34,655 nucleotides of DNA, taken from the IMG/VR virus record IMGVR_UViG_3300033985_000036, positions 1 through 34,655 of that record; one strand, written 5' to 3'. Positions 373 through 34,655 of this stretch are shown in pieces. How positions within the stretch are numbered: position 1 is the stretch's first letter; each line of letters begins with the position of its first letter. Origin of the DNA: a virus. The notes under the pieces were generated by a model. The model was given only the letters and a program-made list of their open reading frames with translations, was not told the DNA's origin and searched no databases. The translations under genes were made by a program, and so were the position numbers.

Positions 373-422
373 GCTCAAAATTTTTGGCAAAAATTCTCAA
401 GATTTTTGGCAAAAATAACGCT
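373..422 (+). repeat. right-end tandem transposase-binding-like repeats (R1, R2)
   Basis: Two copies of a near-palindromic 20-bp element (core ATTTTTGGCAAAAAT) at 375-394 and 397-416 differ by one base and are spaced exactly 22 bp apart, about two helical turns. The first begins 9 bp inside the inferred phage terminus. In phage Mu the right end likewise carries adjacent 22-bp MuA sites. Use as transposase sites is inferred from position and repetition. Confidence 0.7.
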
Positions 423-455: not shown

Positions 456-1634
456 TTACTCTTGCCAATTATTTTGAGAATAACGCTCCTTGACGTGCTG
501 GTCTTTGCCCCGTTGAAAGACGCACTCGTTCAGGAGTTTTGTTTTGAAGTTATAGCTGTTGAAGTGACTCATGATGCCGAAATAGGACTGCATTGAGGCA
601 TTCACCTTGTCGAAGGCAATCAATCCCTTTTCATAGGCTTTTTGAAGCGTTTTGACCCTCCTCTTAATCTTCTTCAGGGTCTTTTTCTTCAGCTTCCTAT
701 GGGTAGGCCATATCTTAAAACCCACGAACTCAACGCCTAGAGATATGGGCCTGATAGCGGTTTTATTGTTTAAATCGAGCGCAAGTGCTGATTTCAGGAA
801 TATCCCAATATCCTCCTTAACCTTATGCAAGTATTTCTTGTCATCCGACAGGATTATTATATCATCCATATACCTGATGTAGTAGTGTATCCTCAATTTG
901 TGTTTTACATACTGGTCAAGCTCGTTCAAGTAGACGTTTGCAAAGAGTTGTGAGGTTAGGTTTCCTATCGGCATCCCTGTATCAAACAATCTCTCTTCTT
1001 CCGGGCAGTCATCGGCTTCCATTCCGGCAGGGAGTCCAAAAGCCACATCCTCACTGTTGACTATGGTTTCAAGCAGCCACATCAAGTCATTATCAGCAAT
1101 CTTCTTTCTCAGGATATCAAGTAATATCGCATGGTTGACTCTGTAAAAATACTTCGAGATATCAAGCTTCAGGTAATAGTATTTTTGACTCTTGCGGTCT
1201 ACCTGCCGCAACCAGTATTGAAGCCTGTCTGCCGCTTTATGAGTGCCTTTCCCGACTCTGCAACCATAACTATCAAAAATAAACTGTTTATCATAAAGCG
1301 GGTATAAAATCCTGTATACGGCCCATTGAACAACTCTATCTTTGAAAGGCAGTGCCATAATCAATCTCTTTTTTGGGTCATGTATAAAGAACTGCCTATA
1401 TTTGCCCACTTCATAGGTTTTATATAAAAGCTCATTTTGAATGATAATCAAGTTTTCTTCAAGCTGGCTGTTAAATTTTAATACTTCATCCCTAAAACGT
1501 TTCCCTTTTCTTGCTTCAAGGGCAGCTATGTACAAGTTTTCAAAATCAATGATTTTGGGAAACAGGTTCTTTAGTTTCTGAGACAATTTTTGCATCCCCT
1601 TGTTTTTATTAGTGCTATATGTAGCATCTTTCAT
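456..1634 (-). CDS. DGR reverse transcriptase
   Basis: A 392-residue group-II-intron-like reverse transcriptase of the diversity-generating retroelement type. Visible motifs: LKLDISKYF near residue 155 (first catalytic Asp), MPIGNLTSQLFANVYLNELD near 220-239 (the GxxxSQ form typical of DGR enzymes) and YIRYMDDIIILS near 250-261 with the YMDD catalytic box. It copies TR RNA into cDNA with adenine-specific errors, and the cDNA then replaces the variable repeat. It is the last gene of the rightmost phage block, after target, avd and TR, the usual DGR order. The ATG at 1634 has only a weak ribosome binding site. A TTG at codon 16, nine bases after AAGGGG, is an alternative start. Its 3' codons overlap the R3-like end repeat. 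Confidence 0.96.
   Translation of the reverse strand: MKDATYSTNKNKGMQKLSQKLKNLFPKIIDFENLYIAALEARKGKRFRDEVLKFNSQLEENLIIIQNELLYKTYEVGKYRQFFIHDPKKRLIMALPFKDRVVQWAVYRILYPLYDKQFIFDSYGCRVGKGTHKAADRLQYWLRQVDRKSQKYYYLKLDISKYFYRVNHAILLDILRKKIADNDLMWLLETIVNSEDVAFGLPAGMEADDCPEEERLFDTGMPIGNLTSQLFANVYLNELDQYVKHKLRIHYYIRYMDDIIILSDDKKYLHKVKEDIGIFLKSALALDLNNKTAIRPISLGVEFVGFKIWPTHRKLKKKTLKKIKRRVKTLQKAYEKGLIAFDKVNASMQSYFGIMSHFNSYNFKTKLLNECVFQRGKDQHVKERYSQNNWQE
461..488 (-). repeat. inverted end-like repeat (R3 candidate) inside the RT gene end
   Basis: On the minus strand this reads CTCAAAATAATTGGCAAG, matching the R1/R2/L1 consensus CTCAAAATnnTTGrCAAAA in inverted orientation to R1. On the plus strand it is followed by ATAACGCTC, and AATAACGCT also follows R2. 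It lies within the last codons of the reverse transcriptase gene. Confidence 0.55.
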
Positions 1635-2309: not shown

Positions 2310-3413
2310 TTACAGAGCAACAAAAGCGGAGCGGAAACCGATATTCGTACTGACGATCGCACGGGAGTGGCTCAGGTTGACGCCGAACACGCCCGCAGAG
2401 GAAGTGCAACCCCAATTGCCGCCACGAAACGGGAGCCTTTCTCCATAGTTACGAGCATAAAAACCGTCTGCCCCATGCGCCGCATCAATCGGAAACATAC
2501 CTAAAGCTTTGAGGAGATTCGGGATTGTTACTCCTGCCTTTGCGGTCATTGTTTCAAATGTTACGCTTGAATATCCATAATCGAACTGACCGCCCGGTAT
2601 ATACATCGGGTTTTCAACAGCGGTGTTTATTATTGGGTCTCCGCCGACATCATGAGAGGTGGTGGTGGAATCGCCAGCCGTGGTATTGTCTACTTTTAGA
2701 GTGTTGGCCGTGCCGGGGGCAACAAGGCTTCCATCCTGTAACATAGCTTTCCACAACGGACTTGCCGCCGTTTGGTCAACAGCAGCAGCCGCATCATTGT
2801 TAGGGATAATTTGTATCTCCCCGTTGTTTAGCCTCAAGCCGCCAACCCATTCCCACACGTTGCCATTGAGGTCAAATATGCCCTCGTTGGTATTGTCGTG
2901 AGCCCAACTTGCCGGGCCGCTTCCGGTTGCAACCCTGCCAGTCTTCCCGGCTCCACTGTCAAAGTATGTCTCCACGCCTTTCTCATGGGGAGCGGAATGG
3001 TCAGCTCCATAGTTATTGTTCCCCCTGGGCATGAAGCCGTTTTTCTTGCACCAAAGCGCAATTCCGGCCCACTCAGCATTTGTCATCAAATGCCATCCTA
3101 AACCTTTACTTTCACAGTAGGTTTTTACGGTGTCGAAGTTTGCGCTTACTTTTGGGTCTTTAAAGGGCAGGCTGTAGGCCCGGTCATACATAACAATATT
3201 TTGATACTTTGAGACCATCACTTCCGCTTTCTGGACTCCACTCACCAAAAACATAGGATGAGCCGCATTATCTCCACCGGCCATAACATCAATGCTCTTG
3301 AAAAACGGAATCCTCACCATGATTGAAGGGAGCCCCATATCATCAAACAAGACCGTATTTTTCCCGCCCGACAACGCTTCAACCGCTAATTTCATGTCAT
3401 CAAAATTATTCAT
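2310..3413 (-). CDS. DGR target protein, C-type-lectin/FGE-like fold, receptor-binding candidate
   Basis: A 367-residue protein whose C-terminal two thirds resemble formylglycine-generating-enzyme/C-type-lectin domains used as DGR targets. Visible are WHLMTNAEWAGIALWCKKNG, FDLNGNVWEWVGGL and the final RGGNWGC...GFRSAF block that contains VR. The variable residues sit on the expected ligand-binding surface of such folds. Residues 1-100 are probably the phage-attachment part. It lies at the end of the tail operon, overlaps the upstream gene by 8 bp and has AAAGGAGG eight bases before its ATG. It is therefore probably a tail-tip or fibre adhesin comparable to Mtd. Phage assembly is inferred from context; the fold and DGR role are well supported. 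Confidence 0.92.
   Translation of the reverse strand: MNNFDDMKLAVEALSGGKNTVLFDDMGLPSIMVRIPFFKSIDVMAGGDNAAHPMFLVSGVQKAEVMVSKYQNIVMYDRAYSLPFKDPKVSANFDTVKTYCESKGLGWHLMTNAEWAGIALWCKKNGFMPRGNNNYGADHSAPHEKGVETYFDSGAGKTGRVATGSGPASWAHDNTNEGIFDLNGNVWEWVGGLRLNNGEIQIIPNNDAAAAVDQTAASPLWKAMLQDGSLVAPGTANTLKVDNTTAGDSTTTSHDVGGDPIINTAVENPMYIPGGQFDYGYSSVTFETMTAKAGVTIPNLLKALGMFPIDAAHGADGFYARNYGERLPFRGGNWGCTSSAGVFGVNLSHSRAIVSTNIGFRSAFVAL
2325..2436 (-). repeat. DGR variable repeat (VR)
   Basis: Variable copy of the 112-bp repeat, forming codons about 326-363 of the target gene. Relative to TR it has ten substitutions, all at template adenines. They give seven residue changes: I329F, N336C, N339S, N344G, N348S, N349H and N353I (TR residue, position, VR residue). 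The part nearest the 3' end of the gene (2325-2355) is identical to TR and probably contains the initiation-of-mutagenic-homing region. Confidence 0.96.
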
Positions 3414-6662: not shown

Positions 6663-7072
6663 TACGCCATCACCACCTCGACCCTGACCCTATCCAGTAC
6701 AATATCTAAGATGTACTGCTTCGAGTCATTAGTAAACTTAAACGCCACCTTGACGGATATCTTATCATCCTCAAAACTTAGCTTTGTTTGTATTGTCTCG
6801 CTATCGATTTCTTCACGCCTTGAGAGCTTCGTCCGAATCCTTTGCTCGATTTCCAGCCTTACCAGCTCGTCATCATCCGCTTGAATGAAGTCAAGAAGCG
6901 ACCATCCCCATGTCTCGTCATAGAAGAGCTCTCCCTCCTGGGACAGTGCCTCAAGCCTGATATCCTGAATAAAGCAGTCCGTATCAGAGGAGAGGGGAGC
7001 GTCACCATTGGCAGCAGCCGTCAATTGCCAATCTTCATCAAGCTTTATGTCCGTATCATATAGACCCGCCAT
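6662..7072 (-). CDS. baseplate protein, gp46/GPW-gp25-like
   Basis: A 136-residue acidic protein between the small baseplate gene and gpJ, the place of Mu gp46. It shows the family-like sequence DTDCFIQDIRLEALSQEGEL, a tryptophan-containing WGWSLLDF segment, then LEIEQRIRTKLSRREEID. Proteins of this group form the baseplate wedge. The ATG at 7072 overlaps the preceding TGA (TGATG), which is preferred to the TTG one codon upstream. Confidence 0.85.
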   Translation of the reverse strand: MAGLYDTDIKLDEDWQLTAAANGDAPLSSDTDCFIQDIRLEALSQEGELFYDETWGWSLLDFIQADDDELVRLEIEQRIRTKLSRREEIDSETIQTKLSFEDDKISVKVAFKFTNDSKQYILDIVLDRVRVEVVMA

Positions 7073-7356
7073 CAAACCACCTTCCCCACGATATAAACAT
7101 TTAGCTGGCCGTAGAGGAGGAGCACCGCCGCCACATCCCCGCTTTCAAGCACAACCTTTGACTTTACTTCAGGAATCTCAGGAAATTCAGCATTGACCGC
7201 CTTGTTTTCGTCAAGTATTTTGAGATTGTAAAGATAATAGTCCGGGTATTGCTGAACCTTTGTAACTTTTGCGTACACGGCAGAGGGGAGCTTGAAGTGT
7301 GTATACTTCGTCTTTATGAGCTTTTCAATGACGTTTTGAATCATCTGCTCCAACAT
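7072..7356 (-). CDS. small baseplate protein (gp45/DUF2577-like)
   Basis: A 94-residue protein with an N-terminal helix followed by beta-strand-rich sequence (YAKVTKVQQYPDYYLYNLKIL, SKVVLESGDVAAVLLLYGQLNVYIVGKVV), compatible with an OB-fold. It is encoded between the hub gene and the gp46-like gene, where Mu has gp45 (spike) and Firmicute phages have DUF2577-type proteins. It is too short for a full spike. A hub or spike-adaptor role is inferred. Confidence 0.75.
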   Translation of the reverse strand: MLEQMIQNVIEKLIKTKYTHFKLPSAVYAKVTKVQQYPDYYLYNLKILDENKAVNAEFPEIPEVKSKVVLESGDVAAVLLLYGQLNVYIVGKVV

Positions 7357-11380: not shown

Positions 11381-11949
11381 TTCTGAGAAGACTTCCGAGA
11401 CTGCCCTTGCAACCACGTTTTTCTCAAGCTCCTGGATATATCTAGCTTGGGCAAGGGCTCTCAAAAACTCCTCAATATCCATCTCTCCCACAGGTTTCTT
11501 TAGAAGAGCAGGAGGTAGATACCTGTAAATTTCAAGCGAACCGGCTTCGATGAAATTACCCTTTACCTCCTGGAGTTGCTCTTCTAAAGTAGCTTTAAAT
11601 TTATGTCTTTAGACAACCCCAGCATGTTCAGCAGTTTCTCACCGACACTGAGAGCAAGGGCCGGGTATTCCTCAAGGTCAGCCTCAAGCTTTTGATGCTG
11701 CTCTTCGATAACGTTATCTAGGACAAACGCCCTGAGTGCCTTTGTCGGGCTCTGTGCCGTGCTCTTGACATACCTGTCATAGGATGCTGTTGCGGGCTTT
11801 TGGAATAAATACACCAGTTCGACCGTTGTCGAATCATCCGGCTCAACGGTTGCGTTTACCCGGTAAAGCTTCCCATATTTGGCTTTATAGGCTTCAAATT
11901 CGTCCTTGGCTTTCGTGGTTTCTGCCGCCGTTTTGTTCTTGTCTTCCAC
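11378..11949 (-). CDS. tail assembly chaperone, predicted -1 frameshift long form
   Basis: After the short chaperone frame, the -1 frame stays open to a TAA at 11378-11380 and has no start codon with a ribosome binding site near its beginning. Its sequence (EEQLQEVKGNFIEAGSLEIY... DIEEFLRALAQARYIQELEKNVVARAV) looks like a real coiled or helical protein. A slip at A AAT TTA (11596-11602) would fuse the frames into about 190 residues. Lambda G-GT, P2 E-E' and Mu-type phages all make such a long form just upstream of the tape measure gene, where it helps coat the tape measure during assembly. The frameshift is predicted from sequence and known conservation, not shown. Confidence 0.75.
11584..11949 (-). 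CDS. tail assembly chaperone, short form (Mu gp41-like position)
   Basis: A 121-residue product lying between the tail tube and tape measure genes, the standard place for G-type tail chaperones. The sequence is acidic and helical, with VNATVEPDDSTTVELVYLFQKP in the centre and VGEKLLNMLGLSKDINLKLL at the end. The GTG at 11949 is nine bases after AGGAGG. The ATG at 11958 directly abuts that site and the TTG at 11973 precedes it, so GTG is preferred. Confidence 0.82.
   Translation of the reverse strand: MEDKNKTAAETTKAKDEFEAYKAKYGKLYRVNATVEPDDSTTVELVYLFQKPATASYDRYVKSTAQSPTKALRAFVLDNVIEEQHQKLEADLEEYPALALSVGEKLLNMLGLSKDINLKLL
11596..11602 (-). other. -1 frameshift slippery heptamer A AAT TTA
   Basis: On the minus strand the bases AAATTTA lie in register X XXY YYZ of the chaperone frame, four codons before its stop. 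Both tRNAs could re-pair in the -1 frame, which is open for about 72 more codons. Confidence 0.65.
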
Positions 11950-11966
11950 GTTCCTCATCCTCCTAT

Positions 11967-11993
11967 TTGTCAATTATTTTGAGATTAACGCTC
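11967..11993 (+). repeat. internal copy of the R3 end repeat
   Basis: A 27-bp sequence matching 462-488 at 25 positions. Its first 15 bases (TTGTCAATTATTTTG) also occur exactly in the left end at 34548-34562. It lies in the 21-bp gap between the tail tube stop and the tail chaperone frame, and reaches into the ribosome-binding region of the latter. Confidence 0.7.
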
Positions 11994-11994
11994 A

Positions 11995-12429
11995 TTAAAC
12001 GGGCTTCAAGCCGTCTCTGATGATGCCGTTGACGATGATAAAGTCCATGTCCACCTTCAGGGACTTGTCGCCCTGGGCATTCTTCTGGCTGGTCTTTGTG
12101 AAAGTAACCGTGTCCAGCTCGTCCGTCTTGGTCTTTGAGGTCTGATTGGCATAGCTCACAATGATTTTGGGGATGACGAGCTTGTACAACGAAACCCCTT
12201 TCCGCTTGCAGTAAGCAACCAGGTCATCAAAGTCATCCTTGAGTAGGCTCAACTTACCCTCCGACTTATAGTTGCCCGTGCCGTACCCCCTGGGCCTGCT
12301 GCCCTTCCCATAGGCAGCCTCTTTTTCCAGCTCATCATCATAAGAGATTTCCTGGACTTCAATCTCAAGGCCCGGAAGCTTGACCGACACGTCAGACCAG
12401 TCATAAACCTTGCCGTTTATAATAGCCAC
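11995..12429 (-). CDS. tail tube protein (Mu gpM-like)
   Basis: A 144-residue protein following the sheath gene, the place of the tail tube in all contractile-tail phages. It is beta-rich, starting AIINGKVYDWSDVSVKLPGL, with SYDDELEKEAAYGKGSRPRGYGTGNYKSEG. That last segment is typical of tube proteins of Mu-like and Firmicute myophages, where the GY.TG.Y region forms the ring contact. GTG start seven bases after AAGGAGGG. Confidence 0.88.
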   Translation of the reverse strand: MAIINGKVYDWSDVSVKLPGLEIEVQEISYDDELEKEAAYGKGSRPRGYGTGNYKSEGKLSLLKDDFDDLVAYCKRKGVSLYKLVIPKIIVSYANQTSKTKTDELDTVTFTKTSQKNAQGDKSLKVDMDFIIVNGIIRDGLKPV

Positions 12430-16875: not shown

Positions 16876-17913
16876 TTACTTCACATCCTTTCCGTATTTC
16901 TCAACGTCTTCCTTGGACACCCCGAGCATCTTGCACACGGCCATTGTGGTTTCCTCAAGCCTGCCGTCGCTCTGTTTGGTGTCTTCCATTCCCAACTCTC
17001 CCATCGGGACGGCTTGAGGGGCCTTTTCAACAAACTTCTTGAAGCCTTCAGGGTCTTTCAAGGCGTACTCCTCAGCCCATTCTTTTTGAGCCGCCGAGAT
17101 TTTGCCCGCCTTTAACGCCTTGGTCACAAGCTCCTCACTGTCCTTTTTGTCCAGCCTCTCTTTGAGCTTGTTGAACTCTGCCACCGGCACAAAGTTTGCC
17201 GGGTTCTTCAGGGCCATGATAGCGGCAGCCACGTCCTCAGTCTTTGCATCCTTACTGTCGAGCCCCAGCAGGCCGCAAATGACTTTGTTGGCAACCGGCT
17301 CCGTGCCTTCTTCCTGCTTCTTGGCTTCCTCTTTCAGCTTCTCGACTTCGCCAACGGCTGTCTTGATAGCCTGCATTACTTGCTCCTCTGTAGCGTCTTC
17401 AGCCAGGCCGAGGAGAGCCGCCAGTTTCTTTAATAAATCCATGTCCTTTCCTCCTTCTTCAAAATCATCAAGGTTTATTGAGTTTACTATCGCAAACATA
17501 CCGTCTATCGCCGGTGTGTTTGTCAACGCCACGGAATGGAGAACAACCGCCTTTTGGTCACTCTTTCTCACCAGGACAACAGGGGAGAGGTACTTGTATT
17601 CCTTGTTCTTGATGTACTCCTGGGCCTTGGGAGTCCACTCCACTTTTGCCGCAATCGCTCCGTCCCGGATGAACAAATCCTTTATCCATCCCCCGGCAGG
17701 AGCCTGAACATCCTCAAGGGTCTGATGTTCATAGTCAATAACAATGTCGATGCCCCTTTCCTTGAAGGTGTTCCTGATTCGCTCAAAGCTCTCTTTGTCA
17801 ACAATGAAGTCTCCCTTTTGCGACTTGACCTTCCCGAGCGGCAGGAGGTTGACCACATCGGGGACTCCTTCTATTGTCGAAGAGCTCATGCTTAAAACTA
17901 ATCCCTTTGCCAT
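16876..17913 (-). CDS. capsid protease with scaffold domain (Mu gpI/Z)
   Basis: A 345-residue Mu gpI-type protein. N-terminal residues 1-155 include FIVDKESFERIRNTFKERGIDIVIDYEHQTL, with the conserved DYEHQ protease motif, and the VALTNTPAIDG motif near residue 140. The C-terminal part is a lysine- and glutamate-rich coiled coil (EVEKLKEEAKKQEEG), as expected for the internal scaffold part. In Mu, Z is an internal restart of I; a possible start near MDLLKKLAALL at 17441, after GGAGG, would be the analogous scaffold. ATG at 17913 follows AGAGGTGG. Confidence 0.92.
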   Translation of the reverse strand: MAKGLVLSMSSSTIEGVPDVVNLLPLGKVKSQKGDFIVDKESFERIRNTFKERGIDIVIDYEHQTLEDVQAPAGGWIKDLFIRDGAIAAKVEWTPKAQEYIKNKEYKYLSPVVLVRKSDQKAVVLHSVALTNTPAIDGMFAIVNSINLDDFEEGGKDMDLLKKLAALLGLAEDATEEQVMQAIKTAVGEVEKLKEEAKKQEEGTEPVANKVICGLLGLDSKDAKTEDVAAAIMALKNPANFVPVAEFNKLKERLDKKDSEELVTKALKAGKISAAQKEWAEEYALKDPEGFKKFVEKAPQAVPMGELGMEDTKQSDGRLEETTMAVCKMLGVSKEDVEKYGKDVK

Positions 17914-18026: not shown

Positions 18027-18767
18027 TTATTTGCTCGTCTTTTTCTTTGATGCCTCTCTCCTTTCGAACGCTTTTTTGAGCGGCTCAGGATAGTCCTTCA
18101 GGTCAGGCTTAAATGGCACCTTTGCCGGATTGTTTGCGAAGTTCGGGTCAGGAAGTATGTTCACAAACTTCCCGTCAACCTCAGCGGCCTGGGGAGCCCC
18201 CGTCTCCACCTTGAGACCTCTTTCTCTGACCTGTCTTTCCGATAATGTCTTCACCCCGCACCGGCACCGGAAGCCGTTCGGGGGATACCAGATATCCCAA
18301 ACAGGGTCATCCGCTCTGAAAACCCTGCCGTCCATCGCCAAATGAGAGGGTCTTGTGTGCTTGTCGCCTACTGCGTCATACTCCCAATAGGGTCGGAGCC
18401 TCAAAACCTCCGGTGAGGTCATCTGCCTGTAGTGGCCGACCTGGTAGGATGTTTGAATGTTCGTTCTAAAGATGTTGTCGGCCTGAAAATTTGTGATGCC
18501 CTTATAACCCTTGTTTTCCAGGAACTCATTCATGCTGTCCTTGAAGTCCCTCAAGGTTGTGCCTTCTTCGATTGCCTTCAAGAGCTCGTCATGGAACTTG
18601 TTGAGTACCTGGATTTTGGAGTATCCTGAAACCGTGAAAGCCTTGTTCCTGTACTCGTCAGCCAGCTTGTAAAACTCCGAGGGCTTCAGCGGGAGCTTAT
18701 CCCCGAAGTAGCTCACCGCTTCTTCAAAGACAATTTCTTTGGTCAACAGCTCAAACAAGTCTTTCAT
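18027..18767 (-). CDS. head morphogenesis protein (Mu gpF)
   Basis: A 246-residue minor head protein. The diagnostic part is near residues 130-175: YDAVGDKHTRPSHLAMDGRV, then WDIWYPPNGFRCRCGVKTLS, containing the conserved H, D and C.C residues of the gpF/SPP1 gp7 family. The N-terminal 120 residues are helical. It is needed early in head assembly. The start overlaps the portal gene end by 17 bp. Confidence 0.94.
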   Translation of the reverse strand: MKDLFELLTKEIVFEEAVSYFGDKLPLKPSEFYKLADEYRNKAFTVSGYSKIQVLNKFHDELLKAIEEGTTLRDFKDSMNEFLENKGYKGITNFQADNIFRTNIQTSYQVGHYRQMTSPEVLRLRPYWEYDAVGDKHTRPSHLAMDGRVFRADDPVWDIWYPPNGFRCRCGVKTLSERQVRERGLKVETGAPQAAEVDGKFVNILPDPNFANNPAKVPFKPDLKDYPEPLKKAFERREASKKKTSK

Positions 18768-20322
18768 TTTCCTTCATCCTTCCGAGCATATCGGCGTAGA
18801 ACATTGCCTTTTGAAGGAGCTCATCAAGGTCTTTGATGTCCATCTTTTTATAGAGGGCCTCTACAAACTTTTCATCTTCAAGCTGCTTTTTGAGTTCTTC
18901 CAGACTTTCCGAATCGTTGAGCAACTCCATCACCGGCTCAAAAATTTTGGCAAAAACACTTGAGCTTTGGGCAGCGGCCACGTCAGCCAGCTTGTCAATT
19001 TGCGCCTGGTACTCTTTGTCAATCTCCCTGTCACTCTTGTTCTTCATAAGCTTCAGGGCCTCTTTGAGGGGCACACCGGACGCTCCTCCTGGAGGAGCAG
19101 CCACTTCTTCTCCTTCCTCCGGTTTTGGAATACTGAATTTCTTGTACAGGTGAGCCGTCGGCACCTTTAATCCTATCCTGCAAATAAGCTTTTCGTAGAT
19201 GTCAACCGTTTCCTTTTGGTCGTCTGCTTCCTCAAAGTCAAACCTGAGATACGGGATTCTCTTGTCTTCCCCGTAGTTGAAGAGCACGAGAGGACGGATT
19301 AAATCTCTTCTGAGAGTAGCGGCCAGGGCCTTGCAGTCCGCAACCGTCAAATCATGCCTTACCTCGTTATGGGTTTTTGACTGGGCATAGGAGCCGCTTC
19401 CCGAATCAGAGGTAAGGGTCTGACCGAGCACAGCCTTTGATATCTGCTCGTCACAGAACCGGGCCAGAGACTCATAGACATTGATTGAGGTTGTCTTTGC
19501 GCTTTCCTTGAACTCAATCTCCGTCCCGTCCGGGATGATACCGGCTGCATCCGTCCCAATCTGTACCAGTGCCCTCATGAGGGCCAGCTTGTCTTCTTCG
19601 CTTGCTGAGGGATTGTATTTCCCTAGCCTCAAAGGCATCCCGAAGACTTCACAAAAGCTTACCCAGTCCTTGAGGTCATAGTTCTTGAAGAGGTACATCC
19701 AGGCTACCACACGGAGCACGCCAGCCCTTGCAGGATGACCGGACTTCGCTTTGTACCGGTGGATAATAAACTTGTTTTCAGGAATCTCAATCCCGGAAGG
19801 GAAGTCCTTCGTTGTGATTTTCAGGATGTCGTTTTCGTCCCAAAACAGCCTCTTTTGATGCCTCCACTTGATATCCTGGATAGTGACTTTGCCCTCGTCA
19901 TAGGCCCAAATGATTTCACTTATGGCAATCCCTTTGCCTATGGCATCCAACAAGTCCATGAGGACATCCTCAAGGTTTTCCAGGCTCTCAATCTCCTGCC
20001 TGACAAACTCAGCAATCTCCTTGTCGGCCTCATCGTCAGAGAAGGGGATAATCTCATAGTCCAGTCCGGTGACTGCGTTCTTCCTGGTCTGAAGCTGGGA
20101 GAACAAATGAGGGTCTTTCTCTTCCATCTCCTCAAAGAGCTCCATCTGCCTCAGAACGTCCCCGGCATCGGCTTCCCTGAATATCTGCGCCAACCTGACT
20201 GGTGTCAGCCCGTTAGAGGGGTAGGTTGAATATTTGTCCTGAACCTGAGCCACCGCAATTTCAAAGAGCTCAGGTTTCTTGGTTGCTGCCTTGTCTTTTG
20301 CTTTATCGCGTTTCTTCGCCAA
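18751..20322 (-). CDS. portal protein (Mu gp29, DUF935)
   Basis: A 523-residue DUF935 portal protein. Conserved parts are YPSNGLTPVRLAQIFREADAG near the start, DLLDAIGKGIAISEIIWAYDEG near 110, and VVAWMYLFKNYDLKDWVSFCEVFGMPLRLGKY near 205. Further segments are SKAVLGQTLTSDSGSGSYAQ near 290 and a helical C-terminal tail. The portal ring occupies one capsid vertex and takes DNA from the terminase. TTG start after GGGGGTGAG. It contains a near-exact copy of the right-end repeat in its coding sequence. Confidence 0.95.
   Translation of the reverse strand: MAKKRDKAKDKAATKKPELFEIAVAQVQDKYSTYPSNGLTPVRLAQIFREADAGDVLRQMELFEEMEEKDPHLFSQLQTRKNAVTGLDYEIIPFSDDEADKEIAEFVRQEIESLENLEDVLMDLLDAIGKGIAISEIIWAYDEGKVTIQDIKWRHQKRLFWDENDILKITTKDFPSGIEIPENKFIIHRYKAKSGHPARAGVLRVVAWMYLFKNYDLKDWVSFCEVFGMPLRLGKYNPSASEEDKLALMRALVQIGTDAAGIIPDGTEIEFKESAKTTSINVYESLARFCDEQISKAVLGQTLTSDSGSGSYAQSKTHNEVRHDLTVADCKALAATLRRDLIRPLVLFNYGEDKRIPYLRFDFEEADDQKETVDIYEKLICRIGLKVPTAHLYKKFSIPKPEEGEEVAAPPGGASGVPLKEALKLMKNKSDREIDKEYQAQIDKLADVAAAQSSSVFAKIFEPVMELLNDSESLEELKKQLEDEKFVEALYKKMDIKDLDELLQKAMFYADMLGRMKENERLV
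18936..18956 (+). repeat. internal copy of the R1 end repeat, near the prophage midpoint
   Basis: Twenty of 21 bases equal the right-end repeat at 373-393, in the same orientation; the single mismatch is A for T at 18944. It lies in the 3' part of the portal gene, coding for SSVFAKIFEP, about 1.5 kb from the geometric middle of the prophage. Confidence 0.65.
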
Positions 20323-23302: not shown

Positions 23303-23734
23303 TTACAGACCGTTCTTGACTTCAAACACTTTTGTCTCAATCGCTTTTGTCAGATATTTTGAGAAATTCCCGAAATGCTTTTCAATCAGAGCCTTAGCCT
23401 CCGGCTTTAACGCATCGGCAATCTCGTCGAAAGCCTTCTTGGATAACGCTTCAAGCTCCGCTCTGTCCCTGACTCCGCTTTTGACCGCTTCTCTCAGGGC
23501 CTGCGCTGTTGTCTGCTCAATCTCCGTCACCGTCTTTGTTGTCAGGATTTCGATGTCTTCCAGTGCGTCAATCAAGAGTTTCCTTTGCTCCTCGTCTTTG
23601 AGCCGCTTTGTCTCAAGCTTTGCCTTTTCCGTCAGCTTGTGCAGAGCGTTAATGGCATAAGCCGCCAGCAAAGCAAGAGCCGCCATTGCAATGTCAATGA
23701 CCACCTGGTTGAAGAGCTGCTGCATTGTTTCCAC
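23303..23734 (-). CDS. holin, LLH family
   Basis: A 143-residue protein with an N-terminal transmembrane helix (VVIDIAMAALALLAAYAINAL), then a long helical charged region containing KLETKRLKDEEQRKLLIDAL and ALREAVKSGVRDRAELEALS. This is the pattern of LLH-type phage holins (PF09682-like). It should permeabilise the membrane for the endolysin encoded upstream. GTG start eight bases after AAAGGAGG. It is the first gene after the strong terminator at 23751-23790. Confidence 0.85.
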   Translation of the reverse strand: METMQQLFNQVVIDIAMAALALLAAYAINALHKLTEKAKLETKRLKDEEQRKLLIDALEDIEILTTKTVTEIEQTTAQALREAVKSGVRDRAELEALSKKAFDEIADALKPEAKALIEKHFGNFSKYLTKAIETKVFEVKNGL

Positions 23735-24230: not shown

Positions 24231-25607
24231 TTAAAGCGTGTTCGCCAGGATACCCATGACCTCACCGATGGTAATTGTCTCCCCAAGCCTGCCCTCCCAA
24301 AACTCAGGGGAGTTGATAATCTTCTTCTCGACAAGCTTCTTAAAAGCGTCCTTCTGCCACTGGGGAACATTTCCGGTATCCGTTGCCTCTTTGCTTTCCT
24401 TAGGTTCCTGGAGGATTCCCTTCAGGATGCCGACGATGCTGTAACCGTATCCCTTTCCGGGCCAGGCCCAGCCCGTACCGTTGGGATTGTCCTCGTATCC
24501 GAGCCATTCAACATATTTTGCAGAGCCTCTCTTGACTAAGTGGAACCGTGGGTCAGCACACGGCTGCTTAAGGGCCTCAGTGCTTGCGTAGGCTTTCAGG
24601 TGTTGTATTTGCGCCCTTACCCCTATCCGTGGGCTTTCAAAGACGGCTGCCTCACCCTTGGCGTTATTGTTAAGTGCTCCGATGCCGCTGTAATTGTTCT
24701 GCTCAGGAAGGACGATGCCGCCATATTTGAAATACCCTGTTTCTTTCAGGGCCTGAGCCCAAGCAACGTCAGCCCTCACGCCTTCAACCTCTGCCTCCTC
24801 AATGAATACCTGTGCAAGCTCTTCAATTGTGCAGTTCGGCAGAAGAGGCTTTGCATTGCTCTTCAGGGCATAGGAGACCATCTGAGCCGCCGTTGCCTCC
24901 GTCTTGCCCATGATGAGAGTGAGCTGTTGCTCCGGCTGCGTCTCTCCCGGCTGCTCAGGAGCAGAGGAGGGAAGGGGATATACCTTGTTTCCTTTTTCGT
25001 CAAAGACGCTGTATCCTGGATTTTTGTCACATTCTGCCTTGGCGTTCTCAAGGACTTTGTAGGCCCCGACCTGAGACTTTGCGTCATCCCAAGACTTTCT
25101 CACCCTGTAGAGCCCCGAAGCAGGAGCGGCCTCCTCTTTAAGCTGACCCTTAAACCAGTTCCATTTCTCCCAGTTGTTTGAGCTCATAGTCCCTGGACAA
25201 TTCTTCCGGCTTGCGTCGTAGTGCCTCACAACCTTATCCAGGGAGATGTTATGCTTCTTCATCAGGAACTTGACAAGCTCAATAGCATTTTGGACGGCCT
25301 TGTTATAATCCCCGTCACTGTTGATGCAAACCTCAATCCCTATGGAGTTATAGTTAGTGATTCCATACTGACCTTTGCCATCCCCGCAATGCCAGGAGGC
25401 ATTTGTATCCTCCACAGTTTGGATGATTGAATGGTCATCTACAAAGTAATGGGCCGAGGCATTTCGGTTGCCACCATTAAAATACCTGTAGTGAGCGTCA
25501 GCATCCGCACCCTTGCCGGGATTGCCTGTATCATGAACGACGATATACTTCGGGTCATTGCCGGTTGAAAAATTGTATTTTATAAGCTTTTTTTCGATTG
25601 TCGTCAT
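24231..25607 (-). CDS. bifunctional endolysin: amidase plus glucosaminidase
   Basis: A 458-residue lysin with two catalytic domains. Residues about 18-150 are an Amidase_2 domain (N-acetylmuramoyl-L-alanine amidase): VVHDTGNPG, SAHYFVDDHS, ASWHCGDG, GIEVC and RHYDASRKNCPG show the zinc ligands. Residues about 160-205 form an SPOR-like linker (LYRVRKSWDDAKSQVGAYKV). Residues about 228-400 resemble a FlgJ-type beta-N-acetylglucosaminidase: VRADVAWAQALKETGYFKYGG, NNYSGIGAL, FESPRIGVRAQIQHLKAY. It cuts peptidoglycan in two places. No signal peptide is seen, so export relies on the holin. AAAAGGGGG before the ATG. Confidence 0.92.
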   Translation of the reverse strand: MTTIEKKLIKYNFSTGNDPKYIVVHDTGNPGKGADADAHYRYFNGGNRNASAHYFVDDHSIIQTVEDTNASWHCGDGKGQYGITNYNSIGIEVCINSDGDYNKAVQNAIELVKFLMKKHNISLDKVVRHYDASRKNCPGTMSSNNWEKWNWFKGQLKEEAAPASGLYRVRKSWDDAKSQVGAYKVLENAKAECDKNPGYSVFDEKGNKVYPLPSSAPEQPGETQPEQQLTLIMGKTEATAAQMVSYALKSNAKPLLPNCTIEELAQVFIEEAEVEGVRADVAWAQALKETGYFKYGGIVLPEQNNYSGIGALNNNAKGEAAVFESPRIGVRAQIQHLKAYASTEALKQPCADPRFHLVKRGSAKYVEWLGYEDNPNGTGWAWPGKGYGYSIVGILKGILQEPKESKEATDTGNVPQWQKDAFKKLVEKKIINSPEFWEGRLGETITIGEVMGILANTL

Positions 25608-28688: not shown

Positions 28689-29660
28689 TTAAAGCATCAT
28701 CATTTTGCTTGCCTGGTTGATAATTTTGAGAGTAATGACTTCCTGACCGGTGTCATTCATAATCCTGATAACGTTGTCCAGTGTCCTCCCCAGCAGCCGG
28801 AAACATCCCGTCTGATGGTTGCAGGCCCTGGAGACCAGCTCATTCATTGCGTCCGGCTCGACCTTGTACCCCTCAAGGTATTTCTCCACTTCCTGCCGGG
28901 TCAGCCCCTTCAGGGAAACATAGAAGTCAATCCTGTTGGCAAACCGTGTGAGATAACTCTTTATCTGAGCTTCAAGCTTCGGCTCACCGGCAATGACAAT
29001 CCCGACATCAGCCTGGTCAAAAATACCCCGGAGGATTTCCATTTTCTTCTGAGTGTACTTGCTGATGAGCTTGTCAGCCTCGTCGATGATGAGCAAATAC
29101 CCGTGATTCACGTTGAAAAACTCCCTGATTCCGTTGACCCTTTTCCAAATCGTCCCGTACGTCTGAGGAATGCCGAGGGCCTTCTCAATGGCCTCGACCA
29201 AATCCCGGCTTGACATGATATCGTCACACTCGACATAGGCCACACGGGGCAGTTTGGCGTAGTGCTTCAGAGCGTGAGTCTTGCCGAACCCCGACTTGCC
29301 GACCACAATCCCAAGGCCCATGTCTTCCTGGCAGGAGCTGCAAAGTCCAATCACACTCTCCGCATCCCGGCCCTCAAAGAACCCTCTCTTTTTTGGCAGC
29401 CTCAAAACCGGTGTTTCGGTTGCCGCCGGAGTGTCTTCTTTTTGTCCGGCCTTGCTCTTGAGGTAGTCCTCAAGCCTTGCCTCAAGCTCCGTCGTGTCGC
29501 TGTCATACTTGCCTGACAAATACCTCGATATGGTTGTCCTCGAATAGTTCAGCTCGTTTGCTAGTTCCGCTTTGGTCTTCTTGTTTACCGCCAGGTACTC
29601 ATTGACCCTTTGGGCCAGTGACCTCATTTCACCCGTGTAAATCGTCGCTACAGCTTCCAT
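28689..29660 (-). CDS. MuB-like transposition target-selection ATPase
   Basis: A 323-residue AAA+ protein. Residues 1-75 hold a helix-turn-helix (KKTKAELANELNYSRTTISRYLSG). Walker A is GIVVGKSGFGKTHALKHY near 118-134, Walker B HGYLLIIDEADKLI near 183, and a C-terminal basic domain follows. MuB binds DNA, delivers target DNA to MuA and provides target immunity. ATG at 29660 eight bases after GAGGG. It follows the transposase gene, as in Mu. Confidence 0.94.
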   Translation of the reverse strand: MEAVATIYTGEMRSLAQRVNEYLAVNKKTKAELANELNYSRTTISRYLSGKYDSDTTELEARLEDYLKSKAGQKEDTPAATETPVLRLPKKRGFFEGRDAESVIGLCSSCQEDMGLGIVVGKSGFGKTHALKHYAKLPRVAYVECDDIMSSRDLVEAIEKALGIPQTYGTIWKRVNGIREFFNVNHGYLLIIDEADKLISKYTQKKMEILRGIFDQADVGIVIAGEPKLEAQIKSYLTRFANRIDFYVSLKGLTRQEVEKYLEGYKVEPDAMNELVSRACNHQTGCFRLLGRTLDNVIRIMNDTGQEVITLKIINQASKMMML

Positions 29661-29685
29661 CACTTTATCCCTCGCTTTCTAATTT

Positions 29686-31749
29686 TTACCCAAGCTGCCT
29701 AAGCTTAGAGAGTGCATCCTGGGCCTTCCTACTGAAGAACTCGTCTTCAGCGTCTTGTTTCTGCCTGTTCTTTTTATCCCTGAGCTCTGAGGCAAACTGC
29801 TTGTCCTGCGGGAGAGCAACCACCTTGTCGCTCTTACCCTTAACCACCAGGTCAAGAGCCCCGACAACATCACCCGGAACGTTGCCCCTTTGCTCATACG
29901 GCGTTCTGAACTCCTCAAGGAGTTCCTTATCGTTTCTAAGCTGCGTATTCTGCATTTTCTTGTGTTCCTCAAGGGCCTTTTGGGAGACCTTTGGAGCTAT
30001 CAGCAAGAGCTCCTGAGATACCGCTTCACAAATCTTCTTGCCTTCCCTTGTGTAGACGTAGAGCCTTGTCACGTCTTCAGGGTCATACTTGATATCAACC
30101 TTTTCCCCGTGGTAGTTGCAAAGCTCCTGAGCCCTGTACTCGTAACCGAATTTCCTGATTCCGATGTTGTAAACCGTGACCCTCTCAGACTTCATCATCA
30201 GGATTGAAGCGTATGACTTCGGGGGAGCAGGCTTATAGTACTTGTCCTCAGCCTTCATGAAGAGCTCTATCGGAACCGTGTACTTCTCACCCTGACGCTT
30301 GAGGCCGGAGTGTTCGCGTTTGTGGTAAACTTCGTTTAACCACTTTGTCCAAAGCTCGTAAAACTCTTCCATCGTGAGGAGCTCCCCACGCTCCAACATC
30401 TTAGGGATGTCCTTCTTGATTTTGGCTGCCGTCTTGGAGCCGGTCAGAGTGCCGGTGTAGGAGAACATCCATTTTGTGAAGCTTGAGCATATCGTCCCGA
30501 AAAACCGCTCAATCTGCGCCTTTGACCAAGGCTGAAACGGCAGGCTGTTTATTTCGTCCTGAATTCCTATGCTCCGGTAAAATCCTTTAGTCTCTTCGTC
30601 GAATTGGAGCTCCTTCTTCTGCTTCCGCTCACTCCGCTTGATGCCAGTCAAATCCTTGGCGTTGTAGTCCTTGCCGTTGTCGATTAAGAGCCACTGAGGT
30701 ACTCCTCCCGGCGTGCCGTAAATCACTTTGAGCAAGGACAATTTCAAAATCTGAGAGTTGGCGTGTCGGCAGATAATGTCACCGAGGAATGTCCGGCTCC
30801 TGGTGTCCACCCAGCCCACAAGCCGGGGTTTTATTGCCGTGACCTTGCCGTTTGGATGGGTATATGCTACCCAGCAGTCAAATGTATGTTCGTCACCTTG
30901 CAGGAGGCCCAGGACCGGCAGGGACTTGGTGTCCCGCGAACCCTTCACCATCACCTTGTTTTTGTATTCCCTCATGCCCTTGGCCGCCAGGAAATGAGCG
31001 TTCTTGGCCCGTCTTTCCTCCATCAGATAGTTGATATACCTCGTAACCGTCTGATATGACGGGTATTCCCATCCTTGGAGTTCGGCCACCTGCTCAAGCT
31101 TCATGTACAGCATTTCAACCGTCCCGTCGTTGGCCGCAAAGTCCTTGTCAAACCACACGTTTTCAATATATGCCCTGACTTTATCATCCAGGGACGGGAA
31201 CGTGAATTTCTCCTTCGGCTTCCTGCACAGGGAGAGCACCTTCAGAAAATCGTAGTTATGGCCGTTTTCCTTATGGAGCCTCATGGCCCAGGCTGACGCT
31301 TCAAGGTAGTCCTTGGCGTACCGGTATAGAGTCCGCTGGCTGATGCCCAGCTCCTCCGCAAACTCCTCAGCGAAAGCCGTCCGCTCACCGTCGTTGTAGT
31401 TTAAAAACTCCTGTATCCGCTTACCTAGTTCGACTGCCTGATAATACTGCTTTGAGAAGTTCTCAAGATACCAGTTTAAGTCAACGCCTACATACCAGGG
31501 AGTTTCTTGGCCTGTCCTCTGTTCAACCACAACATCACTCCCGCTAATACTCACTTTTTCCTTGTAGCCCCGTCTTGCTTTCTTGGAGAGGGAGGAGAGG
31601 GCAACCAAAACCCTGTCCTTGCCTCCGTCCCTCTCTTCAGTCCGGGTCTTAAAGCTTCCCGGATTCCTTTGAATCCTTCGATAAAGCGTGTAATAATTTA
31701 ACCCTTCTAGTTCAGCCGCTTCTTCGAGCGTGACAAATGTTTCAGCCAA
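29686..31749 (-). CDS. MuA-like DDE transposase
   Basis: A 687-residue transposase. An N-terminal HTH (TLEEAAELEGLNYYTLYRRI) is followed by end-binding domains and the RNase-H-like core. The core has D286 (LLQGDEHTF), D357 (WLLIDNGKDY) and E414 (WSKAQIERFFGT). A beta-barrel Mu-transpos_C part (KFGYEYRAQELCNYHGEKVDIKYD) and a basic C-terminal helix that should contact MuB complete it. It performs integration and replicative transposition. The TTG at 31749 follows AAAGGGGGG; the longer frame (TTG at 31779) lacks a ribosome binding site. Confidence 0.95.
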   Translation of the reverse strand: MAETFVTLEEAAELEGLNYYTLYRRIQRNPGSFKTRTEERDGGKDRVLVALSSLSKKARRGYKEKVSISGSDVVVEQRTGQETPWYVGVDLNWYLENFSKQYYQAVELGKRIQEFLNYNDGERTAFAEEFAEELGISQRTLYRYAKDYLEASAWAMRLHKENGHNYDFLKVLSLCRKPKEKFTFPSLDDKVRAYIENVWFDKDFAANDGTVEMLYMKLEQVAELQGWEYPSYQTVTRYINYLMEERRAKNAHFLAAKGMREYKNKVMVKGSRDTKSLPVLGLLQGDEHTFDCWVAYTHPNGKVTAIKPRLVGWVDTRSRTFLGDIICRHANSQILKLSLLKVIYGTPGGVPQWLLIDNGKDYNAKDLTGIKRSERKQKKELQFDEETKGFYRSIGIQDEINSLPFQPWSKAQIERFFGTICSSFTKWMFSYTGTLTGSKTAAKIKKDIPKMLERGELLTMEEFYELWTKWLNEVYHKREHSGLKRQGEKYTVPIELFMKAEDKYYKPAPPKSYASILMMKSERVTVYNIGIRKFGYEYRAQELCNYHGEKVDIKYDPEDVTRLYVYTREGKKICEAVSQELLLIAPKVSQKALEEHKKMQNTQLRNDKELLEEFRTPYEQRGNVPGDVVGALDLVVKGKSDKVVALPQDKQFASELRDKKNRQKQDAEDEFFSRKAQDALSKLRQLG

Positions 31750-31775
31750 ATCCTTCCCCCCTTTACCCTTGGCCT

Positions 31776-31883
31776 TCAATTTGGTAAAATGGAGGGGATG
31801 AGGGGCTTCTTCATCAACGGCTTTTGAAAAGAGTGTCGCTGCTGACCGGTTGGACGCTCTTTTCTTTTGCCATTGTTGAACAT
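31776..31883 (-). CDS. possible 35-aa early peptide
   Basis: A short frame with ATG at 31883, seven bases after GGAGG, and a TGA at 31776: MFNNGKRKERPTGQQRHSFQ and so on, basic and proline-rich. It fills the gap between the coiled-coil gene and the transposase, but another short frame (19 codons) overlaps it. Coding is not certain. Confidence 0.35.
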   Translation of the reverse strand: MFNNGKRKERPTGQQRHSFQKPLMKKPLIPSILPN

Positions 31884-34545: not shown

Positions 34546-34572
34546 TTTTGTCAATTATTTTGTTAATCCACA
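34546..34572 (-). repeat. left phage terminus with transposase-like site L1
   Basis: Read inward on the minus strand it starts TGTGGATTAAC and continues AAAATAATTGACAAAAG. It aligns without gaps to the right terminus at 366-392, including the TGT start, CAAAAT, TTG and CAAAA. The bases beyond (34573 onwards) are very AT-rich and read as a different gene. Confidence 0.7.
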
Positions 34573-34655
34573 ATTTTTATATAATCTGTATAAATCTTTA
34601 CATTTGAATCCTTTATTAAATTTTCATATTGTTTTTTTCTTTCAATAGCTTTTTC
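34563..34655 (-). pseudogene. C-terminal fragment of an unknown host (or neighbour) gene
   Basis: Open on the minus strand from the window edge to a TAA that lies 8-10 bp inside the phage terminus. The 30 residues visible (EKAIERKKQYENLIKDSNVK, then IYTDYIKIVD) are charged and probably helical. It is not the N-terminal half of DeoB, and base composition is far more AT-rich than the deoB flank. The last few codons come from the phage end, so the host gene was truncated there. Confidence 0.5.

Follow-up and report, generated by a model that had tools for sequence, protein, structure and literature searches.

The window analyzed here, the whole 34,655-nt stretch formed by positions 1 to 34,655 of the IMG/VR record IMGVR_UViG_3300033985_000036, carries a transposable phage and matches a Desulforamulus putei DSM 12395 prophage with 96.7% identity over 30.2 kb. 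Its extent, as defined by the outermost end-sites, is 366 to 34572 (34,207 bp). This phage and its relatives share with Mu the TG...CA termini with a 5-bp target duplication, a MuA-type DDE transposase with a MuB-type partner, a Gam protein, and head genes of the Mu type, including the portal gene that houses the site at the center of this study (Table 1). The MuB-like ATPase additionally has an N-terminal HTH domain and could itself show a sequence preference.

Table 1. Termini, end-sites, and principal genes of the phage in the window
Feature	Position	Strand	Remarks
Right terminus, TGTAGCC + R1	366-393 (R1, 373-393)	+	Outermost base 366, R1 7 bp in; same layout in chromosomal relatives
R2 end-site	395-415	+	22 bp from R1, further in
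R3, right sub-terminal site	459-479	-	Opposite orientation; overlaps end of reverse transcriptase gene
Interior site, baseplate	7205-7225	-	In 94-aa baseplate gene (7072-7356), codons L-K-I-L-D
Interior site, tail	11964-11984	-	Between tail-tube gene (11995-12429) and next tail gene (ORF 11584-11973)
Portal gene	18751-20322	-	Portal_Mu, PF06074, E=1.5e-119; phrog_113
Interior site, portal	18936-18956	+	Codons V-F-A-K-I-F-E-P, minus-strand reading
Interior site, holin	23344-23364	-	Near 3' end of holin gene (23303-23734)
MuB-like AAA+ target-capture ATPase	28689-29663	-	phrog_296, DNA transposition protein; PDB MuB 8xvb, 4.5e-4
DDE transposase, MuA/TnsB type	29686-31779	-	Mu-transpos_C, DDE_2; PDB TnsB, 1.2e-8; MuA 4fcy, 5.2e-7
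Left terminus, TGTGGAT + L1	34545-34572 (L1, 34545-34565)	-	Outermost base 34572, L1 7 bp in

Termini of the phage

Reading inward, each terminus consists of TGT and 4 further bp followed by a 21-bp end-site, L1 or R1. When termini are placed by this rule, 12 of the 16 genomes checked have an exact 5-bp target duplication on both sides, to which G006 can be added, where the duplication also matches but lies across two contigs; no such duplication is seen in the remaining four, three of which are virus records and the fourth the window. Because these duplications are exact in chromosomal relatives, the termini, and hence the transposase end-site, are established by sequence. The flanks of the window outside the termini (1 to 365 and 34573 to 34655) differ beside the phage and contain no target duplication, as would be expected of packaged or replicating transposable phage DNA as opposed to a resident prophage. 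As in Mu, with its L1-L3 and R1-R3, several transposase sites of about 22 bp lie near the terminus, and the oppositely oriented R3 is also found in three relatives (G001, G002, and G006). The reverse transcriptase whose gene R3 overlaps (456 to 1634, minus strand; PF00078) is part of a diversity-generating retroelement with a template and a variable repeat of 112 bp (1757 to 1868 and 2325 to 2436), in which 10 of 10 differences fall at template adenines; its target gene (2310 to 3413) has an FGE-sulfatase domain.

Interior copies of the end-site

The sequence GCTCAAAAATTTTGGCAAAAA at 18936 to 18956 equals R1 in 20 of 21 bases on the same strand and R2 in 18 of 21. At up to three mismatches, R1 recurs in the window only here (one mismatch) and at R2 (two mismatches), apart from itself, and 300 dinucleotide-preserving shuffles of the window yielded no such place. 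The preliminary description of this DNA had reported a near-exact, co-oriented copy of R1 inside the portal gene and had considered chance unlikely, all of which these data bear out. It had further placed the copy close to the prophage center, which is correct as to position (18.6 kb into the 34.2-kb phage) but gives the center a distinction it does not have, as it is only one of several positions so occupied. The 21-bp consensus TCTCAAAATNNTTGRCAAAAA has eight places in the window at up to three mismatches, where 100 shuffles lead one to expect about 0.06, a count that is not independent, since the consensus was picked after viewing the window's own repeats, so that the independent tests are those on relatives. 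These places are R1, R2, R3, L1, and four interior copies in or beside the baseplate, tail, portal, and holin genes; the same motif makes both termini and the interior sites. The likely start of ORF 11584-11973 lies just downstream of the tail site, which is the most widely conserved of the four, and of 18 genomes in which a holin homologue can be detected, 6 have the holin site.

To examine relatives, portal-centered loci were taken from the best 80 of 337 confirmed IMG/VR relatives and from the window, giving 81 loci that were not de-replicated. They contain 109 places with up to four mismatches to the motif against 18.2 in shuffles, clustered at about -3 kb, +1.35 to 1.45 kb, and +8.2 to 8.8 kb from the portal start. 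The portal gene itself carries a site at this threshold in 35 of the 81, co-directional with transcription in 28 and opposite to it in 7. Across about 30 near-complete genomes, the sites recur after the MuB stop codon, near the 3' end of the holin gene, in the C-terminal region of the portal gene, directly after the tail-tube stop codon, and in the LKILDK codons of the baseplate gene; none of these genomes has all of the recurrent sites in strong form. Many relatives lack the portal site or have only a weak version of it. Five genomes (G010, G040, G041, G022, and G033) have few or no interior sites by PWM, and their motif may differ; G026 has no tail site and only a weak portal site, and G056 has no syntenic site.

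The classified phage Mushuvirus mushu (FP_Mushu) has the same architecture, with a transposase that is 54% identical, a portal site at 17221, and a tail site at 24274; it differs in having TTGAG-type termini in place of TTGAC and in the smaller number of interior sites found. In still more distant elements (L313/L314 of G020 and L309-L312 of G057 and G058), in which the transposase is only about 25% identical, the motif still stands after the tail-tube gene, and in G020 and G057, the end sites (R end) are related to it. These cases hint that the array may be older than this transposase clade.

Several simpler accounts of the motif were considered. A motif of the host at large is ruled out, as matches in the genomes concentrate in the prophage: at up to two mismatches, all six in G001 lie on the prophage contig within one 23-kb stretch, and seven of nine lie inside the prophage in both G002 and G006, with a reversed control pattern giving zero to three matches per genome in 12 genomes. 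A promoter with TTGACA as the -35 box was rejected, since the R sites have TTGGC, the Mushuvirus clade has TTGAG, and either orientation is found for the portal site. An RNA element is disfavored by the orientation flips and by the identity with the termini.

The preliminary description had compared the portal site with the gyrase site at the center of Mu, which helps pair the Mu ends, and had suggested that it may instead be a transposase-binding site aiding synapsis or regulating packaging or transposition. The resemblance extends to the presence of a central element in a transposable phage; unlike the strong gyrase site of Mu, the center here is occupied by just one of several end-motif copies, in variable orientation. 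With four interior sites at conserved gene positions, and with both orientation and exact codons differing between relatives, a unique central synapsis site finds no support. The closest surviving form of this idea is architectural: transposase at interior sites would bridge with the ends, compacting the phage domain and aiding synapsis or replication. The sites are indeed spread out, with one near the center, and Mu is reported to be a chromosomal domain of its own (PMC7350765); given the central site that so many relatives lack or have only weakly, and its unfixed orientation, we regard an architectural role as improbable, although it is the least improbable of the alternatives to be weighed here.

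Selection on the DNA and co-variation with the termini

Three of the four interior sites in the window are coding, and the peptides at issue are conserved, raising the possibility that L-K-I-L-D-K and F-A-K-I-F-E-P, combined with AT-rich codon use, yield look-alikes by chance. Synonymous codons were resampled with each genome's own usage, taking the best place in each gene. In the window, this gave p values of 0.0015 for the portal, 0.0018 for the baseplate, and 0.0013 for the holin gene; in most lineages carrying a site, p was about 0.0003 to 0.01, and for the baseplate site in particular, it was at most 0.01 in most relatives that carry it. Because resampling takes the best place in each gene, a cleaner test is one that ignores site presence and compares codon columns over 55 non-redundant portals (co-directional class). 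One leucine column is CTC in 32 of 39 sequences against 12.7 expected (p=3e-10), and a further column is AAA in 22 of 27. Two columns are NTT (44 of 55 sequences for one and 40 of 52 for the other), and no other of the 99 Leu/Ile/Val columns shows as strong an excess, so that both of the most codon-biased columns of this kind in the portal gene lie within the site. In the class to which the window belongs (7 non-redundant sequences of 9), neighboring codons are biased on the other strand (GAG in 6 of 7, AAA in 6 of 6, and TTT in 7 of 7); of these columns, those for TTT and AAA are unbiased in the other class. That the codon excess at the site is the strongest in the portal gene contradicts an origin in chance and protein constraint, as do the resampling values and the non-coding tail site, and we consider this origin exceedingly improbable.

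A separate portal leucine column, at an alignment offset of -256 codons from the site region and in a conserved A-L-M stretch, is CTC in 35 of 54 sequences against 14.4 expected; a second motif was not evident there in the 20 sequences inspected.

A gap-free protein alignment places the two alternative portal sites side by side; therefore, a site was lost, and a new one in the reverse orientation arose at almost the same spot, and it seems that location matters while orientation does not. The preliminary description had named conservation at synonymous positions of related portal genes as one point to check and free synonymous variation in close relatives as grounds for refutation. This test did not refute it, as the relatives' portal genes show codon bias toward the motif; among close relatives, the window's portal site does vary, in a spacer column in G001 and in one motif column in G006. 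These codon patterns support the view that the portal site is a transposase end-site copy of functional appearance, conserved beyond the needs of the portal protein. More broadly, selection at the DNA level on the interior sites, as probable transposase end-sites, is well supported.

The interior sites also track the termini. Position 16 of the motif was left free, and interior syntenic sites at up to two mismatches were collected in 45 genomes. Recognizable termini and at least one interior site are present in 26 of them, and the majority base at position 16 is concordant in all 26; since near-duplicates (the window and G006; G004 and G023) were retained and the switch is one event on the tree, these are not 26 independent tests. 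Genomes with C at the termini have 53 C and 1 T at interior sites, and those with G have 8 G and 1 T. In the one switch, seen in the clade that includes Mushuvirus mushu, the termini went from TTGAC to TTGAG, and the terminal sites and up to three interior sites moved together. Individual genomes add smaller correspondences: L1 and the tail site of G007 are identical over 21 bases, and CACAA is common to the termini and two interior sites in G035 and G028. As the interior sites equal the termini and co-vary with them, we think it very probable that their binder is the transposase.

The main competing candidate for a binder is a repressor. The stoperators of cluster A mycobacteriophages are asymmetric sites bound by the repressor across a temperate phage. 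By analogy, the scattered sites would be occupied by the lysogeny repressor, or by the transposase in a repressor's role, with late transcription blocked in the prophage. The present sites resemble stoperators in being asymmetric and scattered through a temperate phage; most are co-directional with transcription, two places lie directly before a Shine-Dalgarno-like sequence, and the precedent is established (PMC9283540). They differ from stoperators in that the motif makes the ends for transposition and is absent from the repressor's own operator region: among 18 genomes examined, the 280 bp 5' of the repressor gene are without the motif (score below 10) in 14 of 15 usable ones, G021 reaching 12.8, with G040, G016, and Mushuvirus mushu left out because the chosen ORF is probably not the repressor alone. 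Moreover, most of the genomes with the motif in common have repressors that are only about 26 to 44% identical to one another, and the portal site flips between the two orientations counted above, so that a fixed orientation relative to transcription is lacking. The repressor is thus an unlikely binder, and silencing of this kind is the least credible of the functional alternatives, narrowly behind the one that follows.

The sites might instead serve as a sink or dosage control, titrating the transposase or holding it near the phage DNA, with copy number limiting transposition. All sites do share the transposase motif, and each genome has several extra ones, a substantial addition to those at the ends. 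A titrating role would not call for fixed gene positions, yet the sites keep theirs over transposase identities of 50 to 60% and persist within coding genes; we therefore hold a sink to be unlikely as well.

A possible role in self-immunity

The reading we favor, at about even confidence, is that a conserved interior array of end-sites is bound by the transposase and gives the phage immunity against its own transposition. In Mu, end-bound MuA drives MuB off the DNA in its vicinity, which becomes a poor target. During lytic transposition, the MuA-type transposase of the present phage would similarly bind single interior sites and, once bound, would stimulate the MuB-like ATPase to leave the DNA nearby, constituting cis-immunity. 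Interior sites could thereby extend a cis-immunity of about 5 kb over most of the phage, which would then not transpose into itself. Being single, without the paired R1-R2 arrangement of the terminus, they should not act as ends.

The distances in the window are compatible with such a range. The gaps between sites are 11.2, 4.4, 7.0, 4.8, and 6.8 kb, and for 96% of the phage, a site or an end is at most 5 kb away, against 29% when the ends are counted alone. Even spacing is significant on its own in G021 (p=0.003) and G002 (p=0.009) and not in G004, G009, G035, G019, and G044; only 2 of 15 genomes have better coverage than random placement gives (p<0.05), and several genomes show large gaps between sites. 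Evenness of spacing is accordingly suggestive only.

Mu itself offers both the mechanism and a caution. Mu cis-immunity is strongest around 5 kb, reaching the bulk level at about 7 kb in one assay and decaying out to 25 kb in another; its range was considered insufficient for the 37-kb interior, where another mechanism acts (PMC7350765, PMC2837660). This interior protection works without MuB clearance (PMC2837660). By the same method as used here, Mu has no interior copies (0.03 expected); it thus differs from the present phages, its interior being protected by a separate, MuB-bound mechanism (PMC2837660). Since the Mu interior is protected without MuB clearance and without interior sites, immunity does not require such sites. 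In BalMu-1, the interior has no further copies of that phage's R1/R2 pair at up to four mismatches, and from the D3112 and B3 records, no credible end motif could be recovered for an interior-site search. With interior copies lacking in Mu and BalMu-1, the array seems to be particular to this clostridial group and not general among transposable phages. No description of interior transposase-site arrays in transposable phages was found in open-access PMC titles and abstract beginnings, and subscription journals may hold one.

That self-immunity is the function for which the sites were selected is a proposition to which we give close to even chances. In its fullest form, to be held a little more tentatively, the clade would place its transposase site within essential genes of its own at intervals of a few kilobases, relaying MuA-MuB cis-immunity genome-wide as a tag of "self" unlike the solution adopted by Mu. 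An interior array that can be removed by synonymous recoding would make directly testable how a transposable phage avoids destroying itself by self-insertion. The sites further present a DNA code for regulation, superimposed on coding sequence, that can be tracked over deep divergence, and through them, the specificity of a transposase may be read from genomes.
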